From positions 13,674,001 through 13,738,000 of the forward strand of contig NC_056538.1 in assembly GCF_910596095.1 (NCBI RefSeq): a DNA stretch of 64,000 nt, in the 5' to 3' direction. Below the pieces are notes generated by a model. It saw nothing but the letters and a program-made list of their open reading frames with translations, had not been told where the DNA came from and searched no databases. Numbering within the stretch: the stretch's first letter is position 1; every line of letters starts with the position of its first letter. The stretch is from Thunnus maccoyii (lineage: Eukaryota > Chordata > Actinopteri > Scombriformes > Scombridae). A program made the position numbers and the translations under genes. Positions 36,401 to 59,920 of the stretch are shown one piece after another.

Positions 36401-39400
36401 ACCCAGCTCTGCTGTTATGTGCTTCTATTCCAGGAGGTGGTGTTCCTGGCGGGGTGAGCTCAGCCACGGCTGCAGCAGGAGTGAGTGGTTTGCCTCAGAA
36501 CCAGCCAGCAGTGGGGGACCGCTATGCTGCTTTAGCTGAGCTTGATACAGTCTTCAGCCCCTCGGCCCCTGCTACAAGTGTTTACAACACCACCAGCACC
36601 TCACAAGTGTGAGACACTATGCTTAACACACACTCACACACACACACATACACACACAACACGAGGAGTAAGTCCCCTGCTATTGTGGGGTCCAAAAGTC
36701 TAAGTCTACTACTAAATATTGTTTATTTTTATAATTTATTAAAATAAATTGGTTCATCTGATTCAAGAATAAGTCAAGATTGTTATTTTTAGGTCTCACT
36801 GAAATGCTAGTATGAATTTGAAATACACAGTGTATAATATTGGGTTTTAATGCACATTTTTCCAGTTATTCAATGTGGCAAAGATGTTTTAGGCCAAATT
36901 ATTCACCTGATTGTTGAAACATAGGAGTGTGATAGTTGATGGATCTAAACCATCTGAATAAATACTGTTAAAATATAGTTAAACTATCTGACAACTTTAC
37001 AAACAAAGCAACTTAACCTACAAACCTACAGTTACCACTCCATCATACAGTATTGCATAGAGTCTCTAGTTTTATTTTTCTGGCTTCCCTGAAGAGACTG
37101 TGTGTCAATTTTGTTTCACTGCAGAGGTGTGTTTGGCCCAGAGACTGGGGTGTCAACAGCCCAAGGACAGCAGGCCCTGCCTGGCATGGCTCAAGGTTTT
37201 GGAGGTGAGTGAACCTATAGGCAATTTTTTTCTGTGTATTGTGGCAATAATGTACCCAAATTGAAATCAGTTAAGATTAAGGGACAATCCCAGGGTAAGG
37301 GTTGGGTACCGTGTACTGTAGGTAATAGCTGAATTTGGCATTGAGCATTGTTATCATTAAGCAGAGAGCCTCTGTACCCTTGTTGGACATTGAGAACTTT
37401 GCTGGTTGAGTTCTTGGGATTAGGTTGTAGATATGATGACAAAATGGGAGTGTTGAGTCAGTCAGTACCATTCAGTGATAAGCTGTGCTACTTCTCAGGA
37501 GGACTCTATGCAGATCTTAATTTCTCAGCAGGGAATCAGCCATGATCAGTTTATTTGAAGGATACTGTTAGTGAAAAGGTCAGCAATAGGAGGTATTTGT
37601 GCCAGTGATTTGAATTGAGAGTGAGGAAAATCACTGATCGTGTACATTAACACGTTGAAATGGGATACCATGTATATATCAATGCTTTTGCTTTTAACAT
37701 GTTTATGTCATGCAGTTTATTTATCTGTTTCTTACTACTTGCTCATGTTGGCTGACTTTATACCTCTCCCAACAGCTCAGTCAACTAATCCGTTTGTAGC
37801 TGCTGGTGTTGCCCCAGCAGCAGCACCCACCAACCCATTCCAGAGCAACGGCAGAACAGCAAATGCGGCAGCAGCAGCAGCAGCAGCAGGTTTGTTTATG
37901 TGTATGTTTGTGTGTGTCTGTGAATGTGTAGCACTTAGAGCACACCATTAAATCAGCTTAATGAATTAATGCAACATAACATAGTAAAATCCTTTATATA
38001 AGATTATGGGCAAGGTGCAGGTGTGTTACATTGTACAGTAAGTGTATTATGTTTGATTTCCTTGCACACAGTTAGCAATGAATATGCCTCAGATCACAGT
38101 GTCAAACACCGAGGCAACCAATCAGGCAACTAGAGGAGAAAATTATCAAAATGTCTGAATACCAAATATACTCACCATTTAAAAGTAATCTAAACCGACT
38201 TTATTGAAATTGGTAGCAGAACTAGTGTTGCCATTTACTGATGTGCACGGGAGATGCGCAGTAAGGTTTTGAAAGTGAGATTTAGTTGTCTGTCTGATTG
38301 CTCTTGCCATGCTGGACAGGCTTGATGAGGGTACTTCATGGGCAGGGTTTCCCTCCCACCATTGGTAGGTTCCCTTCTGCTCTCTGCTTCACTTTTGCTC
38401 TCTTGTGCCTTGCTCTGCCAGTCCCTTCCTGTTCCTGTAGCAAATCTTATCAGGAAAATGTGGTGAGGTAAGCATAGCCACAAGATTCAGAAACCTGTGT
38501 GTGATAAACTAGGTACAACTAGGTGCATTTCACCACAAGGGAGCAAGGATTTAAGATAAGTTTAAAGTGAGCCGCTTTTTGGGAAATCCTGTTATCATTT
38601 CCCTGAATCAGTGATGGAAGAAGTACATGTGGAGATAGTCATTTGAGCTACAGTATATAACAAAACTATTTTTAAGTGGAGGGTGGAGCAACAAAACATG
38701 ATCTGGCAAATCCAGCTGCCTTGCAAAGTAAATCATCCATGCCCAGGAGGATCAAATCTGTCATCAAAAATAAAGGTGGGCATACAAAATACAAAAAAAT
38801 AAAAGAATGGAGTCTCACTAATGAAGCATTCTGTTTTTTCAAATAATTGACTGAATTCTTCTTGCGTATTGCTTTAAAAACAAATAAAATTGTATTAAAA
38901 GGAAATAATTTGCAATTACTTAACATTTTAGTGATATTAACCAGGGATGTACTCAGTTTTGTTATTTACTGTAATTGTCCTCATACTGATTGACTGTCAC
39001 CAAATCAAGCTTTACTCTGCAGGTATCATCATTCTAAAGAAATACCAACACAAACAGTTCTTCAGTCCCCTAGGATGATTTAATAATAAAATCTAAAGAG
39101 GTGTCAGAAAGCGAGTCTGTGACAGATGAATACTGGATAGAATGACACCGAGATTTTGAGAAAATCAACCAACTAGAAATTCAAACAGACTTAAATTCAC
39201 TTTTTCCTGCAGGCAGTCTACTGTTATTTTGTTTGATAGTAAATAGTTATAATGGCAGTCTAGGCTGTGCTTACCTCTATCTTGTGGTAAGTTGATAATG
39301 TCAAAGAATGCCAAATAGAATTAAATATTATTAATAATATTTTTTTTTTTAGGAATGAAATATACCTTTTTATTCTGTGGTTGAAATGGTAAAAAAGTGC

Positions 39401-41335
39401 TCATCTTACCCTACTGTCTATCATATCTGTATCTGGAGTCCAGGGTTCCTGTGGATTCAGTGATAATGGCTTCCTCAACATTTTCCTTTTTATCAGTTGG
39501 ATCTCTAATGTTTTTAAGAAGAAACTAAATTATTAAATCTAACTATGCACTGTAATGTACATAATGAATCAGCTAGTAATTCATTATCTTGGTAGTGTTG
39601 TAATACGCTTCATTCAGTGAATAAACCCAGTAAGTCTTCCAGACTATCCTCAATATCAATTGCATTTGCTTTCAATATTTATTGAACAGGCACTGGATGT
39701 AGCATTTGCACAGGATATTGGATTGCTCAATTCCCAGCTTTCTGTCTTACCACAGTTTGATTCCACTTTGCTCCCTTGTGCTCATCAGAGGTCAGACACT
39801 GGTACACTTACTGCAAATGTTGTAGCCTGATGTCGGACTTTTGTTCACACAATCCCTCCCTTTTTCTAAGGCTTGTCTGGGGACAATTTTTAATCTAAAT
39901 TTGCATTTTTTAAACTCTGCAAATACGTACACTGAGATTCTCAGCAGGAAAAAGATGAATGGACAGTTTTACTGTAGAGTGCAACACTATGGATTACAGA
40001 ATCCCCTGTGCAGTTATTTGCCTGCTAAAAGGACAATGACCAAACCTCCTGCATGGTGTAATTGTTATATTTATAATTCCTAATTTTTTGTATCAATACT
40101 TTTCTTGTTGACTGTTCTGTAAACCCTATTTGTTCATCTTCTCACTCATTTAAGTTTACTTTCAGTATATCACTTTCCAACAAATTGCTTCCTAACAAAT
40201 CTGTTTGTTTTCTCTCGTGTTTTTCTGCTGTTGTGTGCTGGATCCTGTGTGTGTGTGTGTCTGTTAGTGTTTGTGCTGTAAAAATGTCATGACATAATCT
40301 TGTAAATTAAATAAAGAAGCAATGGGTGCAATTTTTTAAAAAACCTTTTTGTATGCATGTAATTTTGTCATATACCTATAGATTTTAATTTAACTTTAAT
40401 CAACTGCTCTCCTGGTGTGTTGCAGCCACATTTGGCACAGGCTCCATGAGTATGCCAGCTGGATTTGGGAATGCTGCAGCCTACAACCTCCCCACCAGTT
40501 TTAGTGGAACCTTCCAGCAACCCTTTCCTGGCCAGGCTCCCTTCCCTCAGGCACCAGCATATCCCCAGCAACCCAACGGTGTGTATAAATGTAGATATAT
40601 CTGCACTGATAACTTACTATACTTAAATTCAAGTTTAGATTTGTTTCTGGCTCAGTAGTCAAATTGTTGCACTTGATTATCTGTGAATAACTGAAAGAAA
40701 CTCCAAATCCCTTCAAAAATGTCTGTGTTGAGTCAGAATATTCTATTCCAGTATTGCTTTTGGTTTGCTTACTTTGACATGAGCAAAGAAGCCCTGTTTG
40801 GGTTGTTGTTGCTATGATGAATTTGTTGAGTGGGAATTCAAACATCAGTTCTTTAAATGTCAATGTACATGTCTTTCAGGTGGAGGATTTTCAGCCTTTG
40901 GCCAGGCCAAGCCTGTTGTGACTCCTTTTGGGCAGGCGATGGCTGGACCTATGGTCTCTAGCAACCCTTTCCTGGTTGGTATTATTTCCTCTAGTAGAAG
41001 TATGTTTTACACAGATGAATGGGGGGGACTTTGGGCCAATGAGCCAAGAAAGATAATTGTTGATAGGCACGTTGTCCTCTTGTTGGGTGCTAATCTGTAT
41101 GAGGCTTTACAACAGAGATGATGATGATGAATAGATTTCATTGCTGCTATAGTGTCAGTTCCAGTAAAAATCCACCAGTGGTTGAATTATTTTATAATAG
41201 ATTGTGAATTTTAATCAACCCTCCTCTCAATAGTAAATATGTATTCTGACTGTGTGTTTTGTGTATCCTTTCCAGGGTGCAGCTCCACCTGCACAGTATC
41301 CAGCGGGAGGCTCTTCAACGAATCCTTTCTTATAG
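14079..41335 (+). CDS. agfg1: ArfGAP with FG repeats 1 (Hrb/RIP), complete, 13 constitutive coding exons plus one cassette exon
   Basis: AGFG1 (Hrb) is an ArfGAP-domain protein with FG and NPF motifs. It binds EH-domain endocytic proteins and is needed for acrosome formation; it is also a cofactor for HIV Rev RNA export. Exons: 14079-14245, 21621-21714, 26297-26412, 27413-27578, 27959-28121, 29297-29416, (34351-34422), 35555-35770, 36434-36608, 37125-37204, 37776-37889, 40426-40578, 40880-40974, 41276-41335. Phases agree throughout; the product is 572 residues without the cassette exon or 596 with it. The ArfGAP zinc finger (CFDC...CTSC) and its arginine region ([14 protein letters not shown]) lie in exons 1-2. 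Exons 4-5 carry [19 protein letters not shown] and [13 protein letters not shown]. Later exons hold repeated NFAHF/NFDAF/NFDNF motifs, two [10 protein letters not shown]-type repeats, and NPF motifs in TNPFVAA, TNPFQSN, SNPFL and the C-terminal TNPFL. Orthology is near certain. Confidence 0.96.
14757..15376 (-). mobile_element. internally deleted Tc1/mariner element with terminal inverted repeats
   Basis: The left end (14757-14804) and right end (15337-15376) are inverted copies; both include GACGGGTGACAAATTAAAG or its complement and an outer TACTGTACATA-type motif. The interior on the minus strand encodes the C-terminal end of a Tc1 transposase. It shows [12 protein letters not shown] and [14 protein letters not shown], the second aspartate/glutamate region of the DDE catalytic fold. 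The N-terminal DNA-binding domains are missing, so it is a dead, about 0.6 kb relic. It resembles a family abundant in salmonids and other teleosts. Confidence 0.85.
14955..15251 (-). pseudogene. Tc1 transposase C-terminal fragment
   Basis: This open frame is the transposase remnant of the element at 14757-15376. It keeps the [14 protein letters not shown] block, in which the catalytic glutamate lies. It starts in the middle of the catalytic domain and lacks both helix-turn-helix domains. It is not expected to be functional. Confidence 0.8.
15390..15612 (+). repeat. LINE 3' tail fragment
   Basis: The stretch with GTGCACTGAGAGCCACTAAA and TCAAATTCCTTGTATGTGT, followed by a degenerate CTGATTCTGAT-like end near 15610, resembles the 3' tail of a common fish non-LTR retrotransposon. 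The identification is from memory of the tail motif. No coding part is present. Confidence 0.6.
22443..22640 (+). repeat. teleost interspersed repeat, copy B (5' part)
   Basis: It begins with AGGGATGCAACTAACAATTA and continues through TTGATTGAGTAATCATTTGA and AAGATATTCAGTTGACTGTT, the last shared with copy A (near 1170). It is the front half of the same repeat family, in agfg1 intron 2. No target duplication was resolved. Confidence 0.65.
23285..24200. other. insert of unknown origin inside the Tc1-like element
   Basis: Between the left flank (to about 23283) and the transposase region (from about 24230) lies roughly 0.9 kb that does not look like Tc1. It is less AT-rich at its edges and has several short open frames, none recognised. 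Clear terminal repeats or a target duplication were not found, so the borders are approximate. Confidence 0.45.
24286..25290 (+). pseudogene. Tc1-like transposase, inactivated
   Basis: Fragments in several frames match a Tc1 transposase: [19 protein letters not shown] near 24286, then [32 protein letters not shown] (first catalytic aspartate block, ending at 24759 in a stop), QDNDPKHTS near 25004, and [14 protein letters not shown] near 25081. Multiple stops and frame changes break it. A perfect inverted duplication at 24395-24440 also interrupts the DNA-binding part. It cannot make a working enzyme. Confidence 0.9.
24395..24440. repeat. perfect hairpin, 21-base arms and 4-base loop
   Basis: Positions 24395-24415 are the exact reverse complement of 24420-24440; the loop is TCCT. 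The arm begins GATTGTGTACAAACGG. It lies inside the transposase relic and is not part of the Tc1 terminal repeats. Confidence 0.95.
29543..29669. mobile_element. hAT-type MITE, 127 bases
   Basis: It starts CAGTGGTTCTCAAC and ends with the complement of CACTGTTTTTCAAC, a typical hAT terminal repeat. It is flanked by ATTTATAT (29535-29542) and GTTTATAT (29670-29677), an 8-base target duplication with one mismatch, the length expected for hAT. It has no coding capacity and lies in an agfg1 intron. Confidence 0.75.
31260..33420 (-). mobile_element. degenerate non-LTR retrotransposon (LINE) with reverse transcriptase remnants
   Basis: On the minus strand, broken reading frames give [19 protein letters not shown] near 33200 and [18 protein letters not shown] near 32600, the latter being the conserved LINE reverse-transcriptase block 2a/A. 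A further block [12 protein letters not shown] and a YADN-like catalytic box occur near 32370-32430. The 3' end carries a simple AT-rich tail (31285-31325), and a run of A bases is at 33427-33455 beyond the 5' side. Many stops make it inactive. It is L2- or Rex-like, but the clade cannot be fixed here. Confidence 0.8.
33427..33455 (+). repeat. poly(A) tract, 29 bases
   Basis: An uninterrupted run of A at the border of the LINE remnant. It may be the tail of another inserted retroelement on the plus strand or a simple repeat. Confidence 0.9.
34351..34422 (+). other. agfg1: probable cassette exon of agfg1 (72 bases, phase 1-1)
   Basis: A long pyrimidine tract (34300-34345) and TGCCAG acceptor precede an open 72-base stretch ending at a GTAAGT donor. 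It starts and ends in phase 1, exactly like its neighbours at 29416 and 35555, so it can be included or skipped without changing frame. It would add 24 residues containing [15 protein letters not shown]. It is not in the canonical human sequence I recall, hence the call as alternative. Confidence 0.65.
37865..37889 (+). repeat. agfg1: GCA triplet repeat encoding polyalanine at an agfg1 exon end
   Basis: About eight GCA/GCG triplets run to the very end of the exon, so the last repeat unit abuts the donor (GCAG|GTTTGT). It encodes alanines between the NPF motif TNPFQSN and the next exon. Length is likely polymorphic. Confidence 0.85.
37890..40425 (+). other. agfg1: agfg1 intron between exons ending 37889 and starting 40426
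   Basis: I see no gene, conserved motif or recognised transposon in this 2.5 kb. Short AT-rich runs (39340 region) and a TG run near 40248 are the only structure. Confidence 0.6.
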
Positions 41336-42331: not shown

Positions 42332-44851
42332 TCAGAATCTGTGTCCGTCAGAACCTGATTCATCATTCTCTGGAGGGGGTGACTCTTCGTTGCTTCTTCG
42401 TGCTCTCCAAATGGTAAACAGTCCCCGCAGTGAAAAAAGAACAGCAATGACTGAGAAGTAGCTGGCGTATATGGTGAACTACAAAAGAGCAAACAATTTT
42501 AAGAGTTTACAACTGATGAGTGGACATACGAACAAATCTGCTACACCCACAGAAGACCTGATTTTATGATCAGACGACTCACCTGAGGAATGATGGCCAG
42601 ACCCAGTCCTCCACTGTCCACCACAACAGAGGTGATGATCGTCTGTAGGGTCAGTGCTCCAAAGTTGTTTGCGCCAAACACCAGTGCATATCTTTCCATT
42701 GACAGGTCAGCTGCAATTTGGTACCTAAGAGAAGTAGTGTGTTTTGTTAATTTGCATATACATATATGATTTAGTGTTTTTTTTTTCTTGTTCTGTCTGA
42801 ATTATAGGGTAAAACATAACCCATTTTATATGAACATAACACACTCACATGGCTATTGTTATCAGCAGCATGTACAGGCACTTGAAAAGGATGTAACCAG
42901 TATAGCAGACCCAGATGTTTCCAATAAAGGTCATGAGGAAGAGTGCTGCTGCTCCGAGTCCAGAGAAACCACCCAGGGCCAGCTCTCCCCACAGTTCCCA
43001 TTTCACCTCAGTGAAGCCTATACCATAGGCTGTTGCTGCACCTACAAAACACATCAATTATGGACTATTTTAGTGGAGATCACAAATGAATAAGCATTTA
43101 GATCATATGTTTTATGTATATTAATATATTTTAGTACAGTATAACAGTTATATTCTATGAAGTGTCCACAACAACAGGACATGTCACACAATAGGTTCCC
43201 ATTTCCATTACAGCCCAGTGTAGAAATGATCTTATAGGAAAATTTTAACTCAATCATGGCTTTGCGGGGGGCATCCTTTTCTAGTCCTGGAAATGTTTAT
43301 CTGATGCTTCTTACTCAACAGGTTGGACACTGCCTCCACCCCGCCATTGTAAATGCTGAAGTTCTGAGAAGGCTGCACATGCTCCCACAGCACCTGCAGA
43401 GAATATTGCATTTATTGAAGATTTGGAGATGCTGATCACACACACAGGCTTAATTTTCACTTTTTTTTTTGTTTATGTTGCCTTTGTAACTGACCTGCAC
43501 GTAGTTGACAGTCTGGTTATAGCCACAGGTGGCCATTGCCCACCACACCGACCAGTACAGCAGCTTTCTGGAGGAGTAGCACTGAAGAAAGTCCTTCCAC
43601 AGCCGGAGGAGAACTCCGCAGCAGCTCTCTGCACCAACAGCCTCCTCAATGTCCTCCGCCTTTGGCCCTTTTTCTTCCTGTCCGTTTCCTGTATCATCCT
43701 GTGTTTCTCCTCCTTTCTCTCCCTTTTCGTCTCCTCTTCCCACAGTCTCATTTGCATGCCTCTTTGTTCCCTCTGTTACTGTTTTCTGTCTAGTATGAAT
43801 GCGGTGAAAGAACATACTCTGCTGTGGCATTGGTAGGAGGCAGGAAGCGAGGAGAGCGATGGCAGTGAGAACCATAGTAAACACCAGGATGTTGTTGTAG
43901 GACATGAGGTTGAAGCTGATGAGCAGCTGGCCCAGCACAGAGCCCACTGTGTACCCCAGGAGCTGCACACTGCGGCTGTAAGAAGTGGCCTTCCGGTACC
44001 TCTTCAGATCTATCACACTGTAATAAACAACATATTCAAAATGTCATGTCAGCACCATTTTTAAACCCTCTGACCCCTGGCAGTAATGGTGCCTTGCTTT
44101 TTCCCTTTGAGCTACATGACCTGTAGATGTAGGAGAAATAGGCCACCTCGCTGGCTGTCACCATCCCGTAGAAGCACTGCATGGCCTGCATGGCGGGTAC
44201 ACTATCTGTCCAGAGCAGCATTGCTGTGGTGATGAAGAGTGTGACACACTGGAACACCACCACAGGCTTGTATCGCAGCCAGTCGGTCAGCAGGAATACT
44301 GGCACCAGCACACATAGGTAGGAATACGTCCACACTGGGAAAATTTGATTGTTAACCTGTTAAGGTAACACGAGTGTGAAAGATGCCTTGCACGTTTAAC
44401 AGGAACTGTATTGCTTCACGGCAATAAATCAAAGGTTTTATAATCCTGATTGGATTTTTATCACTCAAGTAATAAAGACTGTATTTAACTCTTTGCTGTG
44501 ATTCACCAGCTTGGTTATTTTGTCATGATTTAACATGTAAAAGTACAATAAAGCAAATACAGGAATTTTAAGTTTTGGTGTGAACACCACAAAACTTACA
44601 ATATAGACTGAAACTCCTGTTATCCCATGATTACTCTTTTTACTTTCTGAATTAGATTCTCGTGATCTGTGGTTTACTTAAGTCATTTGTTTTGGTTTTC
44701 ATACCTGTTCTGTTGTCAAATTCTTGTCTGGTCCTGTCAAGAATGGTATGAGGAAGGGCTCCAGGGGTTTAACTGTGCTGAAGAATCCGTACACGCACAA
44801 CAGGGTAGTGGGATACCTCCAATCTGATCTCCACCTCCGCACTGCTTCCAT
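42332..44851 (-). CDS. slc19a3: thiamine transporter SLC19A3-like, gene 1 (downstream copy), complete, 7 exons
   Basis: SLC19A3 (ThTr2) is a 12-helix plasma-membrane importer of thiamine in the reduced-folate-carrier family. Exons on the minus strand: 44851-44705, 44356-44121, 44017-43495, 43393-43315, 43041-42849, 42724-42583, 42478-42332. They join to 488 residues (human about 496). The start is MEAVRRWR; an in-frame ATG at 44893 would add 14 residues. Family blocks are [16 protein letters not shown] in helix 1, the glycosylation site in [30 protein letters not shown] and [12 protein letters not shown] long charged loop with [13 protein letters not shown] separates helices 6 and 7, then [29 protein letters not shown], and [17 protein letters not shown]. 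The specific substrate (thiamine rather than another vitamin) is inferred from similarity. It is convergent with agfg1. Confidence 0.93.
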
Positions 44852-45300: not shown

Positions 45301-48300
45301 TCAGAAATGTGCAGCAGAGATCACCTCCACGCTGGTTTCTTGTTCCTTGACATCTGCTTGCTCAAGACGGTGTCGATTTACACAGGCGGTGTAGGTCCCC
45401 CGAATCAGAAAGAGCACAGAGATGACAGCGTAGTAGCTCCCGTAGAGGATGAACTGCGGAGAGAGTCTTCTGTCATCCTCAGCATTATTATTTCAGTCAT
45501 GCCAAGGATTTAGCTACATCACCATTATATCCACCAGGTGTCACTCTGTCCTCACATTTCAGTGTTAGCAAACAGAGCACTTATGCTGCTTCCAGTATTG
45601 ATCCAGCTAGAGTTCACCCAGAGAATGGGTAATACATTGTTGAACTCTACTTTATTATGCATGCTTCGTCTTTTTTTTTGGGATCATCTGTAAGCATACT
45701 GTCACTTCTGCCTACTTGAGCCTGCGTACAAACATACCTGTGTCACAATGTCCAATCCCAGTGCAGCTTCATCAATAAAAATGCCCGTCATGATGGTCTG
45801 CAGTGAAAGGGCAACAAAAGTGTTGATGCCGAATGTCAAAGCATAGCACTCCATGGAGAGATTGGCTGCGATCTGAAATCTAAAAAGACAAAGTGGCTAT
45901 AATGTCTGAGAAAACTACACCTATAAAACTTGTTTCACAGATAAAACCACTGTATTATCCTCCTGACAATTCATTTCCAGGCTTGCAGACTAATAGTTTA
46001 TTTGAAGGAATCACAGTGGCCTCTGTTGTACATCTGTTGTCACTGCTGTGAACTTACGTCGTGATGGTAATGAGAAGCATGTAGCAGGATTTGAATATGA
46101 TATATCCAGCATAGCATGCCCAGATACTGCTGGTAAACGCCATCAGGAACACAGCACCTGCCCCTACAGATGAGAACAACCCTAATGCCAGCTCTCCCCA
46201 CACGTTCCAGGTCACCTTGATGTAACCCACAGAGAAGGCTGCTGCAGCACCTGACCCACATAAGAAGAAAAATGAAGTTATTCATTTGTTTTTCCCAGCG
46301 GACAACACCTCCACTGTGCCTGTGCATCCTTGCTGTGATTTCCTGATTCATTCATTAATAGTTGCACCAGCATGTCTTTCCTTGAACGTTGGTATAAAAG
46401 GGAATGTGGCCTCTGAACAAAACCTTATGCACACACACGGCTTTACAGCACCTGTCTGTTATGATGAACTGCTTTCACCCGGCTCTTAGATTCAACTATC
46501 AGTAATAATCAGAGAATCCATTACCCGTCTAACTCTATCTCCTTAATTGAAGCAATTACTCTTCTTCTTTTCATGCTGAGCCAGGTTGAGTGTGAAGGAG
46601 CAGGACCACTATTCCCTCTCGCAATCAATACACATTTTCCATTTAATCAGTTATCCCATATAACCAAGAATGGCATGGTTGTTTTCTTTTAATTGCAAGT
46701 TTTTATATGTGCCATCAGACATGGCTGCTTTAATAACATTGTTAAATTTTATCTTGGCTCTATATAATGTGGTTGTGCTGCAGTTTCTCCGCTCCCTTTG
46801 TGTCGCTTCAATTCCTAATGCCCGTCCTCAATGTGATGACATTCTGTGACCTCCTGTTTCTATGAATCCTCTGCTCTGCTGTGAGATTACAGTGTCCAAA
46901 AAATATACACTGTCTGTTACTACATGTGTGTTTGTGCATTTTTTTTCTGCTGTTCTTTAGAAAATCCAAATCTTCATTTTGAGTAGTTTGTCCTCTTTCT
47001 ATTTTAAAGCTTTTCAAAGGTTCAGCATTACACATTCTATTATTAGATGTTCTACTTTTTTTGCTTATTTTACTCCAGAAAATAGTTTTTTCTCTTTTTC
47101 TCCTTGTATGATTCTCTCTCTTACACTCATCCCAACACACACACACACACACACATATTGCTACAACCAGGCTTACCTACAAGAGAGCACGCAGCTTCTA
47201 CACCTCCGTTATAGATGGATGATGTAGCAGATGGTTCTATATGGTCCCACATTAGCTGGATGTAGTTGAAGACCTGCACATATCCAGCTGTAGCCAAAGC
47301 CCACCACAGGGACCAGTAGATTAAATGCCTGCATGGGGAGATAATAATTGAGATGATAATGATGATAATTAGTAGGCCACTCCTACAAGAAAAATACTAC
47401 CCTATGAATAAATTGTAGAAAACACCACAAAGAATATTCAAGCAAATACATATATACATGTAGTTGCTCATTTGATGCAGTGATCATACATGAAACTATG
47501 ATACAGGACAGAATGTGCAAAAAGTGTGACGTGTATCTATAGAAAAAAAAATTAAAAAAGAAAATGCCTGGAAGAGTATGACTCTTTGAAGCTTTGCCAA
47601 AGTAGATGACCCGCCATAGCCACATTTTCCCCGCTGCACCAGCCAGCGCTGCCATTCAGCTCCATCTTCTCTTTCCCTGAGCCAGCTTCCTCTTTATCCA
47701 TCACAGGTTCCTCAGGCCTGTCTTCTCCCACTGGCCTCTCCTGCTGGGACTGGCAGCCCAGAGCTGTAGCCTTTTTCCCTTTGAAGAACATGCTCCTCTC
47801 GGGCATTGGCAACCAGAAGGATATGAGAAAAGCTACGCTTACAATCCCCAGAGTGATAGCATTGATGTAGAAGTAGTCCACCCCTGTTGATTAGAGATCA
47901 TACTTCATTAGTGCTTGCTGAAACATTGTTCAGTGTAGTTAATGTAGTTTTGCATGCTGGCAAAGGCAGATTTCAAGATAACAATAACAATAAAAAATAT
48001 TGTTTTTAGTTGTTCAGTATTTATCACAGGCTGGGAGGCCCTACCTGCCAGGGAGATGAGCACTTGACCCAGGCCGGCACCAAATGTATATCCAGCAAGC
48101 ATGGCACTGCGAAGGTAACCAGTGGCTCTTTGGTAATTCTCAACTGGAATCACGCTGTAAATGTAGGAAAAGTAGGCCACCTCTGTGGAAGTCACAACAG
48201 CATAGTTGATCTGTTGATTGGATGGGAACAGTTTTAAAATGATTGCAGTCTTTGATGAAATTCCTTATATCAGTAATGCATAACATAATGCATTATATCT

Positions 48301-49921
48301 GTAGGAGTTAATCTTGAGTAAGGGGCAAAAGTGCAGCAATACAGTAATATGCCTGTGAACAGCAGGATTAGAGTGATTTGTATTATCTAAATAAGATATT
48401 TTTTGTTTTTTGTCAAGAAACAGTTTTTTTCCTGAAATATACATGACATACAACAATTGTTACAGAAGGAATATAATTTACTATCCAACTATGTTCAGTA
48501 ATTGTTATCAATCTTTCAGTGGACCTGAAGGAAGATCATGGCAGGCAGTCCCGGGGCAAAGCAGAGGAGGACATAGTTGGTGACCAGGAAGAGCCCCTGT
48601 ACCATAATGAGGGGCTTGTATCTCAGAAAGTCAGTCAGCAGGAATACAGGGAAAAGGAAGGCCAGGTAGGAATAAGTCCAGATGGGGAATAAGTAGTTGG
48701 TCACCTGTGGGAAAAAAACAAGTAATGGGAAATATGAATGTTGATGTAGGCACAGTGTTCTTTTCCCATTTATATCTCACTGTTAATCAAAACTGAAGAG
48801 CGATTGGTTTCAGATGAGTTCTCCTAATAGAAGTACTAGATGACTAAAGGCTGTGTGCGTATATGTTTGCACATAACAGCATGTGTTTGTCTGCTGTTCT
48901 TAACTTATAAAAGACCTGGATGAAATGGACAAATCAATTGATGAGAAAAAACTGTCTCTATCCCAAGCAATCAGAAATGAAGAAAAATTCAATGACCTTC
49001 TCAAGGCTAATCAAGACATGCAGGAAAAGCTTTCTAGAGCGATAGAAGAAATGAAAATTAAAAAATTCAACAGAGACAAAAAGGATGCAAGTGAGGGCAA
49101 CATCTATTACTGGAGGAACCCCAAATGGAGCACCAAAAGACGTTAGAATGTCAACAAACTGATTGGCTTTCCTCTGACCAGCTCTCAGCAGCCTAAGTTT
49201 CCATTTTTTTTATCTAAATAAGCCATAGATGGGACAGGCATGACAGTCAGAAGAAGGGACTGAGGCCAAGGAAAGGCCATATACAACATGGAAAAAAGAG
49301 AAAGACTTTGGACCCGCTCCTGGGCCCATCAATGGAGGAAATCACTGTCATTAATCTGTCTAGTAAATCTTTAAATGGATCTCATCTCTCTATCTTAAAC
49401 AAGGGACACTCTTTTGTGCCTACTAACCACGCCAAAGACTTTGATGTCAAAGCAGACCTGTTCAAGTCTTTCAGAAACCTACGTTTAAAGGAATTTTTCA
49501 AACAAAATAGATCCACCTCAGAGCAACTAGAAAATAAATGCTCTCAACAACCCAGTTCTTCTCTTAAAAAAATAAAGCTACAGTGACATAAAATGATAGT
49601 ATAATATTTACAACAAAGTGTTCTAAGGGTTCAGAATAGATAAAAGGAATAATAACAAAATATTGGCATATACTTGAATCTGATCATCATCTCAATATCT
49701 AATTAAAGGAGACATGCATATGGAGCCAGAGTGTGCAACACTTTTCCAACTCTCATGTCTGCTGTTCTTACCACTTCTTCAGAGATGTTCTTGTGTGGTC
49801 CAATTAGGTATGGTGTGAGGAAGGGCTCTGCTACTCTGCAGTTAGCAAAAAACCCATAGAAGGAAAGGACTGCAGTGGGATAAGCCCAGCTGGAGGACTT
49901 CAGCTTGTCCCAACAGCCCAT
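45301..49921 (-). CDS. slc19a3: thiamine transporter SLC19A3-like, gene 2 (upstream copy), complete, 8 exons
   Basis: This is the tandem paralog of the gene at 42332-44851. Exons: 49921-49772, 48704-48525, 48210-48045, 47883-47568, 47328-47177, 46250-46058, 45879-45738, 45453-45301, giving 483 residues. Features are [20 protein letters not shown] in helix 1, the sequon in [45 protein letters not shown], a charged central loop, [13 protein letters not shown], and [17 protein letters not shown]. The last three exons have the same length class as gene 1 (193 and 142 bases, then the terminal exon). The first large exon is split at different places. The junction 47568/47328 requires a GC-AG intron; all others are GT-AG. 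An in-frame ATG at 49990 would lengthen the N-terminus by 23 residues. An AATAAA (complement at 45225-45230) follows the stop by about 70 bases. Confidence 0.9.
47134..47155 (+). repeat. AC dinucleotide microsatellite
   Basis: A short CA run in the intron of slc19a3 gene 2 between the exons at 47177 and 46250. Confidence 0.9.
47329..47567 (-). other. slc19a3: candidate recently gained GC-AG intron of slc19a3 gene 2
   Basis: On the minus strand the sequence CAGGCATTT occurs at both borders (47570-47562 and 47331-47323), exactly 239 bases apart. Splicing at CAG|GC...CAG|GC restores the codons for SSR-H-LIYW, which match gene 1 (SSRKLLYW). A pyrimidine-rich TCTCCCCATGCAG acceptor is present. 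No intron exists here in gene 1. Confidence 0.7.
48920..49590 (+). mobile_element. fragments resembling a Penelope-like retroelement N-terminal region
   Basis: Two open frames at 48925-49146 and 49308-49586 lie antisense in intron 1 of slc19a3 gene 2. The first is lysine-rich and coiled-coil-like ([18 protein letters not shown]). The second has [20 protein letters not shown] followed by [19 protein letters not shown] and [10 protein letters not shown]. That pattern resembles the stretch just before the reverse transcriptase of Penelope-like elements. No catalytic RT or GIY-YIG domain follows, so it is a 5' fragment. The assignment rests on motif memory. Confidence 0.5.
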
Positions 49922-50786: not shown

Positions 50787-53700
50787 ATGAAACTCAAGCG
50801 GTTCCTTCTCAGATATTATCCACCAGGTAATACAGATACTTTAATTCTTCCCAACTGTAACTATGTTTTACCTCTATTTGATTAATACTTGCATATGTTT
50901 TACTTGCAATTGTTTACTTCTGTTTGATTAGTTGTTCTTTTTTGTTGTCGTTGTCCCCTAAACTCCTTCCCCCTTTCACGTGTCTTCTGGTGCTTGCCAG
51001 GCCGTCACTGTAAATAAGAAACTGTTGATGTCTTGCCTGGTAAAATAAAGGTTAAAAAAAATAAAATAAAACGTTGGTTTCTTTCAAGGGAAGATGCTGT
51101 CGAGGAAACTGTGATATCAACAACAGCCTAACGTTAGCTCTAGCTTTAGCGCTAGCTCCAAATCTATAATGTGGGTTAACTGACTTAACACAAGCGTTGT
51201 TTCCCACTCTTCTATCCATGAGTTTGCCAGGTTATAACATCAGGCTCAATTCTGTGTCCTTTCCCGGTTCAATGCGTTTCTCTGCTTCCAGGTATAATTC
51301 TGGAGTATGAGAAAGGAGGATATCTGAGGACCAAATCAATCGACCTTTTGGATTTGACCCCAGAGTGCGTGAGTTGTATCCTATTCGCTAACATCTGTGA
51401 AGTTAGCAACAGCTGGCAAATGTTAAACAAATGATATTTATAAACTTTGTGGTTTCATAATAACTTTAAAAGGTGTTACTTTAAATCGTAATACTGTCAT
51501 GTTATTATTACTAAACTAGTAAAACATATCTCCAAATAGCCTCATCTCAGACCTCAGCAGTCCATATGAGATCTCTGACAGGGTTAAAGGATAGGTTCAC
51601 ATTTTTAAAATCTGTCTTAATACAATACTCACATGTACACATGTACTTGAAAGTGTTGTAGGTTGCTGTAATCATTCCTCCTGTTTATGTTAGCTGTGAA
51701 GAGATCCCATCTTAACATGACATCCTCATTCTGTGCAAAAAGTAATTGAATATCAAGGGATCTCTTCATGGCCAATGTGGACAGCAGAAACAATTACTGC
51801 AACCAGAAACTGTATGTAACTATAATACACACAGGGCATGTGGATATTGTTTTATGAAATACTTGAAAAATATGACCCTTTAATCTCCACACTAACCTAC
51901 TAACCTTTATGTCCATTGTTCTGAATGTGATACATACAGCATAAACACTAAACTTCACTAGTGCTTACTCAAATAACACTACAAAGTCAATCAGTTCAAC
52001 TCAGCTAATATTGGAACTCATAATTTTTCTTGACTCTAACAAGAGGAGGAGCAGTGTTTTATGTGCATGTTCACTATATTTGTGTATAGGGCTGAATTTA
52101 ATACCTGGTAAACTGTATTTCTCTATCAGTGCCTCATTCACATAGTTTGCACTTTTGAGATTTGCTTAGAGATTTGGTGTTTGTGAGATTTGTGTTTGGT
52201 GTTTTTTAAAATTTTTATAATCACCATCAGGTCATCTGAAGTTTAAAAAATTGTAAAAAAAAAAAAAAAAAAAAAAGCATTTTCCCACCATGCAGATCAA
52301 ACCCAGATGAGCTGGTGACAGAGATCAGGCAATCAGAGCCTCTGATCACAGAGTCCCGGGCTGATCAGGTCAAACAGCTGATTATCCGACTTCAGCAGAA
52401 ACAGGGCCAGCAGGACCACCACCGCTTCTGCTTCTTCAAGGTTAGGTGCAGGAGTCACACTTACACTGCTGACTCATAAAAATTAAATTAAGAAATTACA
52501 TTACATCTAAATTAATAAAAATGTCTCCTGTTGGTGTAGACATTCATTTTATTCAATTTCTATGTCCATGAATTGCTGTTCAGAGTCATTACTATCATAA
52601 GACCTGCTGTAACCCTTTGTCTTTGGTGTCAGTCCAAACTTTTTGGGGACATGTATTTAGTATCAGATTGAAGGAATAAAACATCAGCTAAGTACAGCAG
52701 TTAAGCAGTTACATTTATTCCTTGTTAAAAGATTCACATTTGTTCTCTTTGTTAGTATTATTTTTACATCTGTGACAATTTGGGAGTTTGAGTATATTAG
52801 CAGTCAGTGCTCCAAAGAGGCACTAGAGAGCAGCAGCGGATAGGTTACTAAGTCTCAGAATTAGAAGCCAAATAAGTATGCCAACAGTCTAATAACATAA
52901 TAACAACAGGTGCTTCATTTGTGTCTTATTAGTGTATGAAGGAATAGACAAGATAAAACTGTTTCAGGTAAGAGGTTATGGTTGGTTAGATGGCTGAAGA
53001 TCAGAGGATATTAATGTTAAAACTGGGGAGAGGCTGTGCTGTTGAGCAAAGAGAGGTCTTCCCATCACATCAAAATCAGATGATATATATATATATATAT
53101 ATATGGACATTACATGTTCAATCTTAAAGATGAATGAAGTCAATAATTATACTGCCTTGGAGGTTATATTTTCATATCTTTCTCTCTTTTGTGCCTTTAC
53201 AGGAGCTTAAGGCACACATACTCCCACTGACAAATGTTGCCTTTGACAAATCAGGGTCAAGGTGAGTTTATCTGCAACACACAAAAGTCTAGCACTCCAC
53301 AGTTCAGGAAAAGTTATGTTTATTTGTTTGTTGTTTTGTTACTCTTCTCTTTCACTCTGCAGGTTTATTACCGGGAGCTATGACAGAACATGTAGGATTT
53401 GGGACACAGCCTCAGGCACCGAGCTGCACACACTAGAGGGTCACAGAAACGTGGTGTATGCAATTGCGTTCAACAACCCCTTTGGGTAATGAGCTGTTTT
53501 AGCAAAAGTTTCATAGCGTCTGAGAGCTACAGTGCTCTTTTTGACATTCAGGTTAAGTGTTCAGCTGTTCAAAAGAGTTTTTCATCTTAAAGTGTTATTT
53601 TCTCTCTCTGAAATATAGAGACAAGATTGCCACTGGTTCTTTTGATAAGACCTGCAAACTGTGGTGTGCTGACACGGGCAAATGCTTTCATACATTTCGG

Positions 53701-56700
53701 GGTCACATGGCAGAAATAGTAAGTATGACATCTTCAGGGTTCCCACAGTCATGGAAAACCTGGAAAAGTCATAAAATTTTGAAATCTCATTTTCCAGGCC
53801 TGGAAAAGTCATAAAATTAAGGAAAATTGAAAGTTTTGGAGAAGTCATGAAATTTCACTTTGTTGTCTGTAAAGAAAAGGTCATGAATGGTCATGGAAAT
53901 TATATTATGGGTCCTTGAAAAGTTATGGAAAAGTTTTGCAATTTTATCTGTGAAAATGTGTGGGAACCTGCATCCTGTTTTAACTGAGAATTATCATTTT
54001 ATTTGTTTTTAGTGCAGTGGTTGCTTGATATGTTATAGAATATTGCACATTGTCTATGTTTATACACTTTTAAACTCACTATGTATCCCTATTACTGATA
54101 CAATCTAAAAAAATCACAGTTTTTTCTTTGGTGTTACATTCAGTGCCAGATAATATACGTCCCTGCCAAATGTTTGGCTTTGAAGCAGGATCCAACTCTA
54201 GTAACTTTAAAAGTGTTTGGTGTAGGTGTGCCTGGCGTTCAACCCCCAGAGTACACTGCTGGCCACGGGCAGCATGGACGCCACTGCCAAGCTGTGGGAT
54301 GTGGAGACTGGGGAGGAGGTGGCCACTCTGACTGTGAGTTCTCTTTTCTTTACTCCCTACATTCCTCTGCCTCTCTTGTTTTTCTGTCATTGAGGCTCAC
54401 ATCCATTCATTAGTGATGCACTGGTTAACTTTTTCATTTACTTCTAAGTGCAGTTATTCCTAAATTGAGCGTTGTTACCCCTGCTGATAACCAGCTCCTT
54501 TTCCACCTCACATATCCACACGATCTGACGGGGTATGTGACTGTAACACTTTAATAAGGCACTGATAACCCACTCTGAGGGGAGTAGTGAGTCTTCTTTG
54601 ATGTACAGACTGCACGTGGGTCTGTGGTGTGACTGGTTGGTTGGCTGGCTCTGTCTCAGTGCGGAGCAACTCTCTGCATCTAGCTCTGTTCTTTGAATGC
54701 TCCACACCATGAAGAATCAATCATGCGGACTGCAGTCAATTGAGAATCTTGAGTGCATGTTTTTTTTTTTTTTACAATTTATTTATTTCAAGTAGAATAA
54801 TCTGCCTTTAAGGCTCTGTATGTTTATTTTAATAAATAATATTTCTTTGATGTACATTTTCATCCATAAGAAGAGATAGAGGGAGTGAACAAGAGGGAGT
54901 ATGAGAGAGATCAGAAATGAGACAGTTAGGGATAATATTTTCTCTTTGATTCCATTCAGGGTCACACCGCAGAGATCCTCTCTCTGTGCTTTGACACGGT
55001 GGGCAATCAACTTGTCACTGGCTCCTTTGACCACACTGTTGCTATATGGGACGTTGCTTCAGGAAGGTCAGACATTCATTATTGCTGCGCTGTATGCATC
55101 CATTTGTGCATGTCTGTAGCTTGTGCATATGTGTCATCATTTACAGCACGTGCATTACACGTGTAGGCTCTGCACTCGGGCGTGCACAGCGGACTCATTT
55201 TTTTTGCTTTCTGTTTTTCTCAGACGTGTTCACACTTTAATGGGTCACAGAGGGGAAATCAGCAATGTTCAGTTTAACTGGGATTGCTCCCTCATAGTCA
55301 CAGGCTCCATGGACAAAACCTGCAAGGTGAGCTGTCATCAGCCTGACTGAATATATATGTAAAGCAGCTGCAACACTTTTGGATTTTTAAAAAATGAACT
55401 CCCCAGACTAAACCTGTAATATTACCTATAAGCTCTCTGTAGGTCAGACTTGTTTGTACATTTTCATTCAGTTACAATTTTAAACTATTGCACAGACACA
55501 CCGTACATATTTGATGGATGACCCTCCTTTTCACATTCACTCTCCTCCATCTCTCCCCACCTCCTGCCTCTAAGGTCTTCATCATTTAAAAGAGAAAAAT
55601 TAAATCCTAATTCCTTAATTATGCTGAGATGAGTCATGCTCACAAGTAAGAATTATCCACATCACCGCCTTCCTCTAGGGGGGATGGTTAAAACAAAGCC
55701 ACTTAAGACAACTAGCAGCTACACACAAGCATATTTTATTGTGTATGTTTGTTCACATGTATGTGTGTCCTAGTTTTTGTGTGGATGTGTTTCCTGCCTG
55801 AGAGTATGGATAGTTATGTGACAGAGTATTTTTTTTGTTCCATGCATATGTGTTTGCAGTTGTGGGAGGCTGACAGTGGAAAGTGTGTGGCCACCCTAGT
55901 TGGACACCAAGAAGAGGTGCTGGATGTGTGTTTTGATTTAAGTGGTCAGCTCATTGCTACGGCCTCCGCTGATGGTGAGACTAACAACTAATTTACCAAA
56001 AGTTTACATACTATTATAGTATTATATTATAGTAATTGTATAGTATAGTATAGATTTTTGAATACATTCCCACTTATTCCTCACCCTGTCCAGCATTTTT
56101 ATCTTGTTTTGATCACATATTTTAAAATTAATAAATGAATATGGTTTTAAATTGACAAGAAATACTACAGATTTTTACTATTTCTGTATATTCTGGTTTA
56201 TGCAACAAAGTGGTGCAAACATTTTGTCCAGTAAAAAAAAAGCACAGTGCATGTACACTAACAACCCTTCCTGTCTTTGTCTCTGCCAGGTACAGCCCGA
56301 GTGTTCGCTGCAAACACACACCAGTGTCTCGCAACACTAAAGGGGCATGACGGGGAGATCTCAAAGGTTAGTCACTGGACCCAAAATGGCCTCTCTGCCA
56401 CAGCCTGTGAGGAATTAATGTCACTATAGAGATCACCTAATTTCTGGGCAAACTTTTATTTTCTATATCTTTGGCTAAATGGGAATCTACTATTTGAACA
56501 CCTCACAATAATTCTTTACTTAGCATTTCACAACTACATATACATTTTTGTTAGTGCACCTGTGTCCAAAGCTCACGAGGGCTGTATAGTAACAGTTGTA
56601 AGATACTTTTGTTTCAGCTTTCCAGAAAGATCAGTGACAGAAATCTTCAATGCAAAAAGGCACTGTGTAAGCAAGGCTATTGGAACAAAGAGTAGCACAA

Positions 56701-57941
56701 GTGGGTCCGGCTCTCTATACACTCTATACCAAAACCAACAATGTATTAGTTGGTTTCAGTCTTTTCTGAATTCCCTACACTGTCTGTGGCACTGTGCCCC
56801 AAACCCTTTCATTCCTACTGAGAATGTAAATTTTAAAAACAGGTCACAAATACAGTGTATATATCTTCATTTCATTGAATAGGATATTTTATAGAATATT
56901 GCCAGCCTCTTTACCAAACACTACAACAGGACATAAAATGTGACCTATTTACAATGCCCTTATGTGTGCTTGAAATTTTAAAAATGGCCAGTTTACTTGG
57001 GAGTGTGGGTGGGTGATATAAACAAAATGAATATTGCATAAATGATTAGAGCATGATCTAAAACTTCATATGATACAGTGCTTCATAAAATATTCAAAAT
57101 CACATATTAAATATTGAATAATCCTCCAGTCCTGTTTGGGAATATGTTTAAACGATTATAAATGGCATTACAACTAGCAGATGTGAATGAGCTTGTACAT
57201 TTGTGTAACATTAACCCTTAATCTCTGGCTACAGCTGTCCTGGACAGCGTTGTAAATAGGACATTACCTCTACTGTGTTAACATGGGATAAAGCATGATA
57301 CTGAGGTAGAAGGACAGGAGTCCAGGCTTCAGGCTGTTTTGTATTTACTATGTCACATGGTGTAGTTCAGCTAGTCTGGATAGTAAGGCTTTATAATTTT
57401 TTTTCACTCTACTGTAGTGACGCTTCTGTTGATCTGACTAATTGAAAGTTTTCGTTCCAAACTAGATTTTCAACGTCCAATCTCCATGAGAGATGACAAA
57501 TACGATCCATGTCATCTCTGACCATCAGTGAACATGGTCTGACCTTGTCTTTTTTTATCATTAGTTACACCTGTGCTTTTTATTTTTGTATTTGTTTATT
57601 GTGCAATATACTATACTCAAACCGAAACAAAGGAGAGAAAAAAGGCAAAACAGCAGTAATAATAGCAACAACAACAACAATGGAAAAGCAAACAAACAAA
57701 CAAAAGCAGACATGATGTTCTCTTGGGCTCTTTGGTCTGATCAAGCTTTGAACTCAGAGCACCAAATGTTGCACCCATGCATATAATCACATATAATCAC
57801 ACATCCCCCAAAATAAACCTTTAACCCTGTGTAACATGGCCTGTCATTACCTGTGTCAAACCAACACACACTTTGGCACTTTGACATCCTTGTACTTTAA
57901 TGGGGGCAATTTTATCCATTTACCACTTTGCAGGTTTCTTG

Positions 57942-57977
<36 letters not shown>

Positions 57978-59920
57978 TGCAGGTTGTGGCTCAGAGGGTT
58001 GCTGTGTATGAGTGCATGTGTTGCTGAGAAGCTACCTCTGTTTGCTGAAACACATCAGGCAGTCAGTAATAAATAGGCTGAATGGAGGATGAATTCCGAG
58101 GATTATGGCGCTAATCTCTCTCTCTTACAGGACATCTCTCCCACTCCCCGCCATGCTTCTTAACCACAACATCCTTTTTTTTTTTAAAGTTTTGTGTATC
58201 TACCCATTTTTTGCTTTTATTTTCATTATTCCTCAATCTCTCGAGTTACTTCACCTTGCTCCCTTTTCCTGCTATAAATCTGGGAAATATAGATGATAAA
58301 CTGTACTGAATTAACTGATGCGCAGGCTTGGATGCATGTTTCTTTGTGGATTCTACTGTGTATGGCATTCAGAAGCCCTTTTTTCCTAAATGTTTTGTTC
58401 CTGCTGGTGAGAGAAATCCTTCCTATTTTGAACAGTCCATTAGCTTTACTCTTGCGCTTAGCTCAGGACAAAATTACAACTTTGCAAACAAGATATTTCA
58501 TAATCCAAATGTCACATTGTTATGAAATTTGTAAAACACATTCACAGTACAGTCCTGTAAGGTGTGAGGGGAAGAAATAATCGCAGGGCCTGGCAGAGAG
58601 CAATTTTTTCTCCACACCTCACCCATTACAGGATCTATTAAAATTGGTCTTGCAAATATTCTACTTTTACTGTTACTTTTTTCTACAAACTAGTAGCAGT
58701 AGTCGTCTGAAAGAGAAATTGAAGGCAGCATATTGCTCGTTCACCTCAGTGGTGCAAAGCGTTGTGGAACAGCTGTGTCCATCAAGAGCACACTCACAAA
58801 TCAAGCACATTTAGCATGCATTCTGGCAACTTTTCTAGTATGAATGCACTGGTTAGGAAACCAGGTTAGAATTAGTATCCAGTATGGAACTGGGACACAG
58901 TCTTGTTTATTTTTACCTGTTTCTTGTCGTTTCCTCTTTCCTGATGTTTTTTTTTTCTTCTCTGTCCATTTTAAATCACACCACACTGTTTTCTCTCTGT
59001 TTCTGCACTTGTCTTAGCTTCCACTCATCTTCTCCCTCCGGTCTTCTATCTTTGTCAGCTTCCTCTATAGTCAGTTTCCATTTCCTGTCCTGGGGTCGCT
59101 CCTTGGTGCTCAGTTTAGATTTTTAATAAAAACATACTTTACTTTCATGGCCATCTAGAGCCAGTGTCATTTAATCATCTCTTCCTTTACCTCACTGTGG
59201 GGATATAAAACCATTCAGGGAACGATAAACCCGGGCTCTATAACACATTCAGCTTCAGCCATGATTTTCATAATACTCTACTGGAAAAGCTCCTCACTAA
59301 GTAGACCCACCATTGCCTTTATCCTCCTTAAGTATTTAAGGTTGAATGCCCTCTGAGGCATAATGCTGCTGACGTGGTGAAAGTGTTCTAACCTCACTAA
59401 TTTTCCCCTCTCTTTGTCATTTCGACCACTTCCTGTATAATCTCTTATTCAGCACTCTCTCTTGCTCACTCTATCGCTCATGTAGCACACACACCCCTGA
59501 ATAAGACTAACTCTCCTGACTCTGCCTCTCTTGGTAGATCTGTTTCAGTCCCCAGGGCAGCAGGGTCCTGACTGCCAGCTCAGACAAGACAGCTCGTCTG
59601 TGGGATGTTCAGTCTGGAGTCTGCCTACAAGTCCTGGAGGGGCACACCGACGAGATCTTCTCCTGCGTCTTTAACTATGAGGGTGACACCATCATTACAG
59701 GTATACGCTAACCCACACACACATTCACCACATCTGACAGCCACACACTACTGCAAATTGAAGCCTTGAACTTGAGCAGTGAATAAACTGCTCCTTGTGA
59801 GCCCAACACAAATGCATTTTAGATTAAAAACATGCAGCTGTGTCTTTCTGTGCAACTACCTTTTCATGTTTGTGCTCTCCTGTAGGCAGCAAGGATAACA
59901 CATGCCGGATCTGGTTTTGA
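50787..59920 (+). CDS. daw1: dynein assembly factor with WD repeats 1 (WDR69/ODA16), complete, 13 exons
   Basis: DAW1 is the vertebrate homolog of Chlamydomonas ODA16, a WD40 cargo adaptor that links outer dynein arms to intraflagellar transport. Exons: 50787-50826, 51292-51364, 52296-52440, 53203-53261, 53363-53485, 53619-53718, 54226-54333, 54960-55066, 55224-55326, 55860-55974, 56290-56366, 59538-59700, 59886-59920. They sum to 1,248 bases, 415 residues, the length I recall for the human protein. The start [15 protein letters not shown] is conserved. The N-terminal helical domain is followed by eight WD repeats, with signatures such as [75 protein letters not shown] and the terminal [11 protein letters not shown]. 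Exon 2 uses a GTGCGT donor; the stronger-looking GTGAGT four bases on would break the frame. Confidence 0.96.
50985..51068 (+). repeat. LINE/SINE 3' tail in daw1 intron 1
   Basis: GCCGTCACTGTAAATAAGAA, then TTGCCTGGTAAAATAAAGGT and an A-rich end form a tail shared by common fish L2-type LINEs and their SINE partners. Only the tail is recognisable. Confidence 0.65.
51585..51890 (+). repeat. teleost interspersed repeat in daw1 intron 2
   Basis: Landmarks GGTTAAAGGATAGGTTCACA, CTGTCTTAATACAATACTCA, GCTGTAATCATTCCTCCTGT and GAGATCCCATCTT occur in an abundant non-coding fish repeat I recognise. Family name and ends are not certain. Confidence 0.6.
53083..53104. repeat. AT dinucleotide microsatellite
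   Basis: A run of alternating T and A in daw1 intron 3. Confidence 0.85.
53735..53970. mobile_element. 236-base MITE with CAGGGTTCCCACA termini, 16 bases after a daw1 exon
   Basis: The left end CAGGGTTCCCACA (53735-53747) is matched by TGTGGGAACCTG (53959-53970) in inverse orientation. The interior is built from repeated CTGGAAAAGTCATAAAATT-type units (near 53769 and 53802) and related degenerate copies. This repeat type is widespread in animals. It starts only 16 bases after the donor of the exon 53619-53718. Confidence 0.75.
56367..59537 (+). other. daw1: daw1 intron 11 (3.2 kb)
   Basis: No coding exon, RNA gene or clear transposon was recognised. It contains the TG microsatellite and a CAA/AAAC-rich stretch near 57660-57705. 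Confidence 0.6.
57944..57975 (+). repeat. TG dinucleotide microsatellite
   Basis: About 15 TG units in the long daw1 intron 11. Confidence 0.9.

Follow-up and report, generated by a model that had tools for sequence, protein, structure and literature searches.

A predicted private GC-AG intron in an SLC19 gene of Thunnus maccoyii and its possible origin by antisense LINE-type retroposition

Introduction

How does a coding exon of a vertebrate gene come to be interrupted by an intron that its relatives lack, and can the event still be read from the DNA? The sources of gained introns are often unreadable. Here, we describe a case in a 64,000-nucleotide stretch of the Thunnus maccoyii genome (contig NC_056538.1, positions 13,674,001 to 13,738,000; hereafter 'the window', with positions counted from its first letter), where a member of the SLC19 family carries a short interruption bordered by an exact direct repeat. 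If the route that we propose is confirmed, one intron gain would be linked to a named molecular route. A sequence-only reading of the window had presented the interruption as a recent, paralogue-specific intron with a GC donor, gained by insertion with target-site duplication, and we examine below which parts of that description hold.

Gene 2 and its genomic surroundings

The gene concerned, which we call gene 2, lies on the minus strand, with a coding region from start to stop at 45301–49921. It comprises eight exons: exons 1–3 at 49921–49772, 48704–48525 and 48210–48045, exon 4 at 47568–47883, exon 5 at 47177–47328, and exons 6–8 at 46250–46058, 45879–45738 and 45453–45301. With 483 codons and no stop among them, it reads as an intact SLC19 (thiamine/folate carrier) gene. 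The gene model, Pfam and the PDB match support this assignment: the product matches PF01770 (Folate_carrier) over residues 11–435 with an E-value of 3.6e-163, and its best PDB match is human thiamine transporter 2 (509 bits, against 473 for transporter 1).

Gene 1 (42332–44851), named slc19a3 gene 1 in the sequence-only reading, scores slightly higher against human thiamine transporter 1 (501.1 bits) than against transporter 2 (493.5 bits). The two genes are 49% identical, which makes them distant paralogues. Intron 1 of gene 2 contains a decayed retroelement-like fragment (48890–49600), for which 15 other stretches of the genome were matched at 71–92% identity; its two open frames gave no Pfam family at the Pfam cut-off. 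The flanking genes on the plus strand, at about 37600–41100 and 53330–59700, we take from their open frames to be AGFG1- and DAW1 (WD-repeat)-like.

Anatomy of the repeat and the intron

The repeat is nine bases long, AAATGCCTG on the plus strand and CAGGCATTT on the sense strand of gene 2, and its two exact copies lie at 47323–47331 and 47562–47570, 239 bases from start to start. It is the only direct-repeat family found in this interrupting stretch, at exactly 9 nt, and the 9-mer occurs four times in the 64-kb window on both strands, the two intron-border copies included. On the plus strand, the site reads GATT, AAATGCCTG, a 230-bp insert (47332–47561) ending in AGAAAAAAAAATTAAAAAAGA, and again AAATGCCTG. 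The A-rich end of the insert is thus at the right on the plus strand, antisense to gene 2, and the tail, 20 A in 24 bases (47541–47564), runs into the second copy of the repeat. At the left edge of the duplication, on the plus strand at 47321–47326, stands TT|AAAT, which agrees at five of six bases with the L1-endonuclease target TT|AAAA.

In the gene model, exon 4 ends at 47568 and exon 5 begins at 47328, so that the predicted intron 4 would occupy 47567–47329 on the minus strand, 239 nt in phase 2, between SSR and HLIYW. Reading frame and conservation point to splicing at GC...AG borders, in agreement with the border table and with the paralogue and human alignments. In gene sense, repeat copy 2 spans the junction of exon 4 with the intron, three bases on the exon side and six on the intron side, giving the donor CAG|GCATTT, and copy 1 spans the other junction, with the acceptor CAG followed by six bases of exon 5; the match at the borders is therefore 3 + 6 = 9 bases, extending beyond the CAG as had been noted. 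A branch-point-like TACTAAT (47368–47374, minus strand) puts a candidate branch-point adenosine at 47369, 40 nt upstream of the 3' end of the intron. When 47567–47329 is removed, the junction aligns without a gap to the segment KECYSSKRLFYW of human thiamine transporter 2.

The description of the locus on which the sequence-only reading was built is accurate. The repeat is correct base for base at both borders of the 239-base stretch, the GC-AG borders are supported by sequence and gene model, and removal of one repeat copy with the insert does restore the coding sequence.

A private position in the SLC19 family

At least five SLC19-family genes were found in the genome, a count that, as for any large family, is a lower bound. 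We aligned five of them with introns marked; the models of genes A, B and C are incomplete at their 3' ends. One N-terminal and three C-terminal introns are common in position and phase, three of them in all five genes and the last in four of five (the model of gene A ends before it). A further six introns occur in a single gene each, all at different sites: three in gene 2, two in gene 1 and one in gene C. None of the other four SLC19 genes found, all of which have the common introns flanking the site, carries intron 4 of gene 2, and gene 1 is continuous there, so the claim that the intron is paralogue-specific stands.

The human gene agrees. A published table places the SLC19A3 variants of codons 51–320 in a single exon, among them those at codons 205 and 289, which bracket the site, and assigns the variants at codons 44 and 385 to the exons adjacent to that one (PMC6801173, Table 1); that table numbers coding exons, and the same exon is exon 3 in PMC3022826. 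The next human exon begins at c.980, codon 327 (PMC8281341), which in the protein alignment corresponds to the common intron after exon 5 of gene 2. By the published variant table, then, human SLC19A3 has no intron at the intron 4 site. Because the intron is absent from four of four paralogues and from human SLC19A3, a gain in the gene 2 lineage is the simple and, on the alignments, well-supported reading. Its private position says little about age, because genes 1 and 2 are only 49% identical. The tree of the five genes, in which neither of the two inner branches is supported, does not single out the paralogue nearest to gene 2.

Two further private introns of gene 2, both missed in the sequence-only reading, interrupt the same ancestral large exon. 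One (48211–48524, minus strand; FLQ|INYA, phase 0) is GT-AG with a border repeat of 3 and matched nothing else in the genome at E ≤ 10; the other (47884–48044, minus strand; SLAG|VDYF, phase 1) is GT-AG with a border repeat of 4. The private introns of gene 1 lie at 44120–44018 (103 nt; YIY|SVI) and 43494–43394 (101 nt; NYVQ|VLW), the latter with a 7-base border repeat. Gene C (C24:19.38 Mb) has a single private intron of 104 nt in a variable loop, upstream of the studied site. Comparison of the six with one another returned short, weak matches only (best E 0.038); a separate match of 22 nt at 86% identity (E 0.001) links the gene 1 private intron g1i2 to exon 4 of gene 2. With three of the five paralogues found carrying private introns, six in all, the family lends itself well to the timing of intron gains in fishes.

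Is the repeat beyond chance?

We surveyed border repeats in 30 modelled introns, a set without intron Ci3 of gene C, the final intron of gene A, the two outermost introns of the DAW1-like gene or any intron of the AGFG1-like gene. The nine bases of intron 4 are the longest border repeat; two introns reach 7 and the others at most 5. For the other five private introns, the values are 3, 4, 5, 7 and 4. When the donors and acceptors of the remaining 29 introns were re-paired, 2 of 812 pairs had nine or more matching bases, and none of the 812 had six or more on the intron-start/exon-start side. Under a column-frequency null, the probability of nine or more per intron is 0.0018 with GT donors and 0.0003 with GC donors, or about 5% and 1%, respectively, once 30 introns are allowed for. 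Because that many introns were examined, the repeat alone is only suggestive, modest evidence that does not decide the matter.

The tail and the target site

The A-rich tail and the endonuclease-like target, neither of which had been noticed in the sequence-only reading, suggest a route for the insertion. Nine A or T tracts comparable to the 20/24 tail occur in the 64-kb window, the tail itself included, and 1.2% of window positions reach the level of the TT|AAAT match. We also scanned the window and three other gene loci for exact repeat pairs of at least nine bases lying 60–500 apart; after a low-complexity filter had removed those in which any of the four letters was missing or made up more than 60%, 155 remained (102 in the window and 23, 16 and 14 at loci A, B and C, respectively). 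The AAATGCCTG pair alone has a tract of at least 19 A in 24 (or the mirrored T) at the expected edge (1 of 155), and the same pair also has the endonuclease-like site. Both tests were devised after the sequence had been seen, and their strength is lower than the raw figures.

Judged as a LINE-type insertion, the locus has an A-rich tail adjoining the duplication at its 3' edge, though an impure one, and a target close to TT|AAAA. No polyadenylation signal was seen by eye close before the tail, and the genome search described below found no source element or transcript at E ≤ 10, so the insert is not a proven retrocopy. For L1, a preference for the target TT/AAAA is reported, also in 5'-truncated copies whose duplications are 9 bp or shorter; L1-type duplications peak at 14–16, against which nine bases is short, and mRNA retrocopies rarely have 9 or fewer (PMC2912911). 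Since duplications this short are rare for mRNA retrocopies, a truncated element would be favoured over a retrocopied transcript.

Source and age of the insert

Three queries, namely the complete stretch, a 214-base part of the insert and a core of 101 bases, were run against the genome, and each returned only itself at E ≤ 10; no sibling copies, which the sequence-only reading had suggested looking for, appeared. Mutated control queries were recovered at 88% and 80% identity and a query at 72% was not, and the same search, given the retroelement fragment of intron 1, returned the 15 other stretches mentioned above, which shows that it detects repeats. The source of the insert is therefore probably gone, unassembled or diverged by more than about 20%. 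Rfam gave five hits on the insert, all below threshold, and hence no known RNA family. The best match of the insert within the window (43 bp, 79%, E 0.005) was rejected, as 12 of 100 shuffled sequences reached an E-value of 0.005 or lower.

Together, the lack of a source in the genome search and the impure A tail speak for an old insertion and against a recent one. The description of the gain as recent therefore loses its footing, with no genomic relative of the insert and only 49% identity to gene 1, and 'rarely documented' is too strong for ray-finned fish, in which gains have been reported (PMC12357937, PMC2746811). The observation that the insert has no terminal inverted repeat was confirmed: there are three weak internal inverted repeats, none of which joins the insert ends.

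This anatomy also bears on three sources that we considered and set aside. A DNA-transposon intron is not indicated, given only weak internal and no terminal inverted repeats; neither is an introner, as the genome search found a single copy and the six private introns gave only weak matches to one another. For tandem exon duplication, the best match between intron 4 and the exons of gene 2 was 10 nt (E 0.47).

Splice sites and the consequence of retention

In a simple matrix, the intron 4 donor has the lowest score of the 30, mainly through its C; with the C column left out it is not the weakest. It lacks +4A and +5G, both of which are present in 21 of the 29 other donors. A donor that was recruited by chance would be expected to score low. 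In the pre-mRNA, the antisense tail reads UUUUCUUUUUUAAUUUUUUUUU from intron base 4 onward, a U-rich tract just downstream of the donor, and TIA-1 is known to bind U-rich stretches downstream of 5' splice sites and to recruit U1 (PMC9311317). If intron 4 were retained, the reading frame would stop at codon 276, at an in-frame TAA (47552–47554, minus strand).

Alternative donors, the best 14 and one scored apart, offered no better junction. An in-frame site 15 nt upstream, AGA|GTCATA, has a score of 0.6, and its use would lose the conserved SYSSR; CGG|GTCATC at -43 scores 5.1 and breaks the frame; CTG|GTGCAG at -72 is in frame and removes 24 residues. CAG|GCCTGA at -150, also in frame, would remove 50 residues; with the C left out it scores 6.0, against 4.5 for the intron 4 donor on the same scale. 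Donors inside the insert all lie after the in-frame TAA.

Weighing the explanations

An insertion with target-site duplication is likely, and it is the best reading of the nine-base repeat, the A tail and the endonuclease-like target taken together. Target-primed retroposition is in turn the best account of how the insertion arose, because the tail and the target stand at the repeat edges. We put the chance that an old LINE-type retroposition antisense to gene 2 became the intron, with donor and acceptor both inside the target-site duplication, at about even. The private position and the repeat would equally follow from repair of a staggered double-strand break, in which filler DNA was joined and the copied ends left the nine-base repeat with its splice sites, the A tract and TT|AAAT being coincidence. 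That no related copy of the insert was found in the genome suits such repair, as do the direct repeats of at least 8 bp over the splice sites of novel Drosophila introns, mostly of unknown source (PMC2809761), and the short repeats at gained Daphnia introns (PMC3488318). Break repair does not, however, predict an A tail at the edge (1 of 155 pairs) or an endonuclease-like site (1.2% of positions), and we regard it as a credible but unlikely origin.

The tail and the target also count against an ordinary old gained intron whose GT donor later became GC and whose nine-base identity is chance added to splice consensus, four of the nine bases being explained by CAG|G. In its favour, the remaining five private introns are GT-AG with border repeats of 3, 4, 5, 7 and 4, some teleost gains date to the ancestor of Eurypterygii (PMC12357937), and the failure to detect a source in the genome search fits as well. 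Against it stand the per-intron probability of 0.0003–0.0018 and the 0 of 812 re-paired borders with six or more matches on the right side, and we consider it unlikely too, marginally more so than break repair. Far less probable is that there is no functional intron at all, only a disabling insertion or an assembly error in a dying paralogue: the weak GC donor and the stop at codon 276 on retention would suit such a gene, whereas the remaining exons and their splice sites appear undamaged, the 483 codons contain no stop, and the branch-point-like sequence at 40 nt is followed by an AG acceptor. Nor does the insertion look young, and a dead gene should by now have decayed.

On the retroposition account, target-primed reverse transcription would have copied an A-tailed RNA, either a 5'-truncated LINE-type element or a retrocopied transcript, into the coding exon. 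A nick in the sense strand at GCATTT|AATC would have allowed the A tail to prime there, and repair would have duplicated nine bases, leaving the insert antisense to gene 2. The upstream copy of the duplication would then have become the donor CAG|GCATTT and the downstream copy the acceptor AG, with the insert supplying the branch-point-like TACTAAT. The antisense tail would form a U-rich tract beside the weak GC donor, where TIA-1-type proteins could help U1, and any intron-retaining transcript, stopping at codon 276 upstream of three later introns, would be expected to undergo nonsense-mediated decay. This fuller version, in which the duplicated target (ATTT|AA next to CAGGC) gave both splice sites, GC donor included, and the A tail acts as a U-rich helper of the weak donor, we hold more tentatively, at somewhat below an even chance.

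The route is not general in this family, because the other five private introns have no comparable border repeat. If confirmed, it would demonstrate that both splice sites, even a GC donor, can come from the target-site duplication itself, and it would predict that antisense retroinsertions at CAG-G sites are over-represented among gained vertebrate introns.

Comparison with known systems

Intron gain in teleosts is as such an already known kind of event. In the open-licence literature on intron gain, the search turned up no vertebrate intron reported to have arisen by LINE-type retroposition and to use a GC donor, which is weak evidence of absence. Gains have been documented in teleost slc26a1 and slc26a2, with transposon-like introns in notothenioids (PMC12357937). 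The notothenioid slc26a2 introns are described there as putative transposable elements that are present in many copies in the genome and carry inverted repeats as well as direct repeats of 4 nt, whereas for intron 4 of gene 2 we found no copies and no terminal inverted repeat, and it has a 9-nt repeat, an A tail and a GC donor. The serpins of ray-finned fish are alike in having several non-standard introns per gene, MAG|N proto-splice sites and no similarity to known repeats; they differ in that DNA breakage and repair was proposed for them, with no insertion anatomy noted (PMC2746811).

Some novel Drosophila introns share with intron 4 direct repeats of at least 8 bp over the splice sites, weak splice sites, a mostly unknown source and premature stops if retained; they come from an insect, with end-joining of breaks considered as their origin, and the A tail of the insert is a feature of the gene 2 intron (PMC2809761). 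Introners likewise insert with target-site duplication, and in some families the surrounding target sequence contributes both splice sites (PMC9860276), but the gene 2 insert was found as a single copy. L1-type retrocopies share with it a TT|AAAA-like target, an A tail and a target-site duplication, and differ in being human and chimpanzee insertions in which the duplications of full-length L1 peak at 14–16 bp (PMC2912911).
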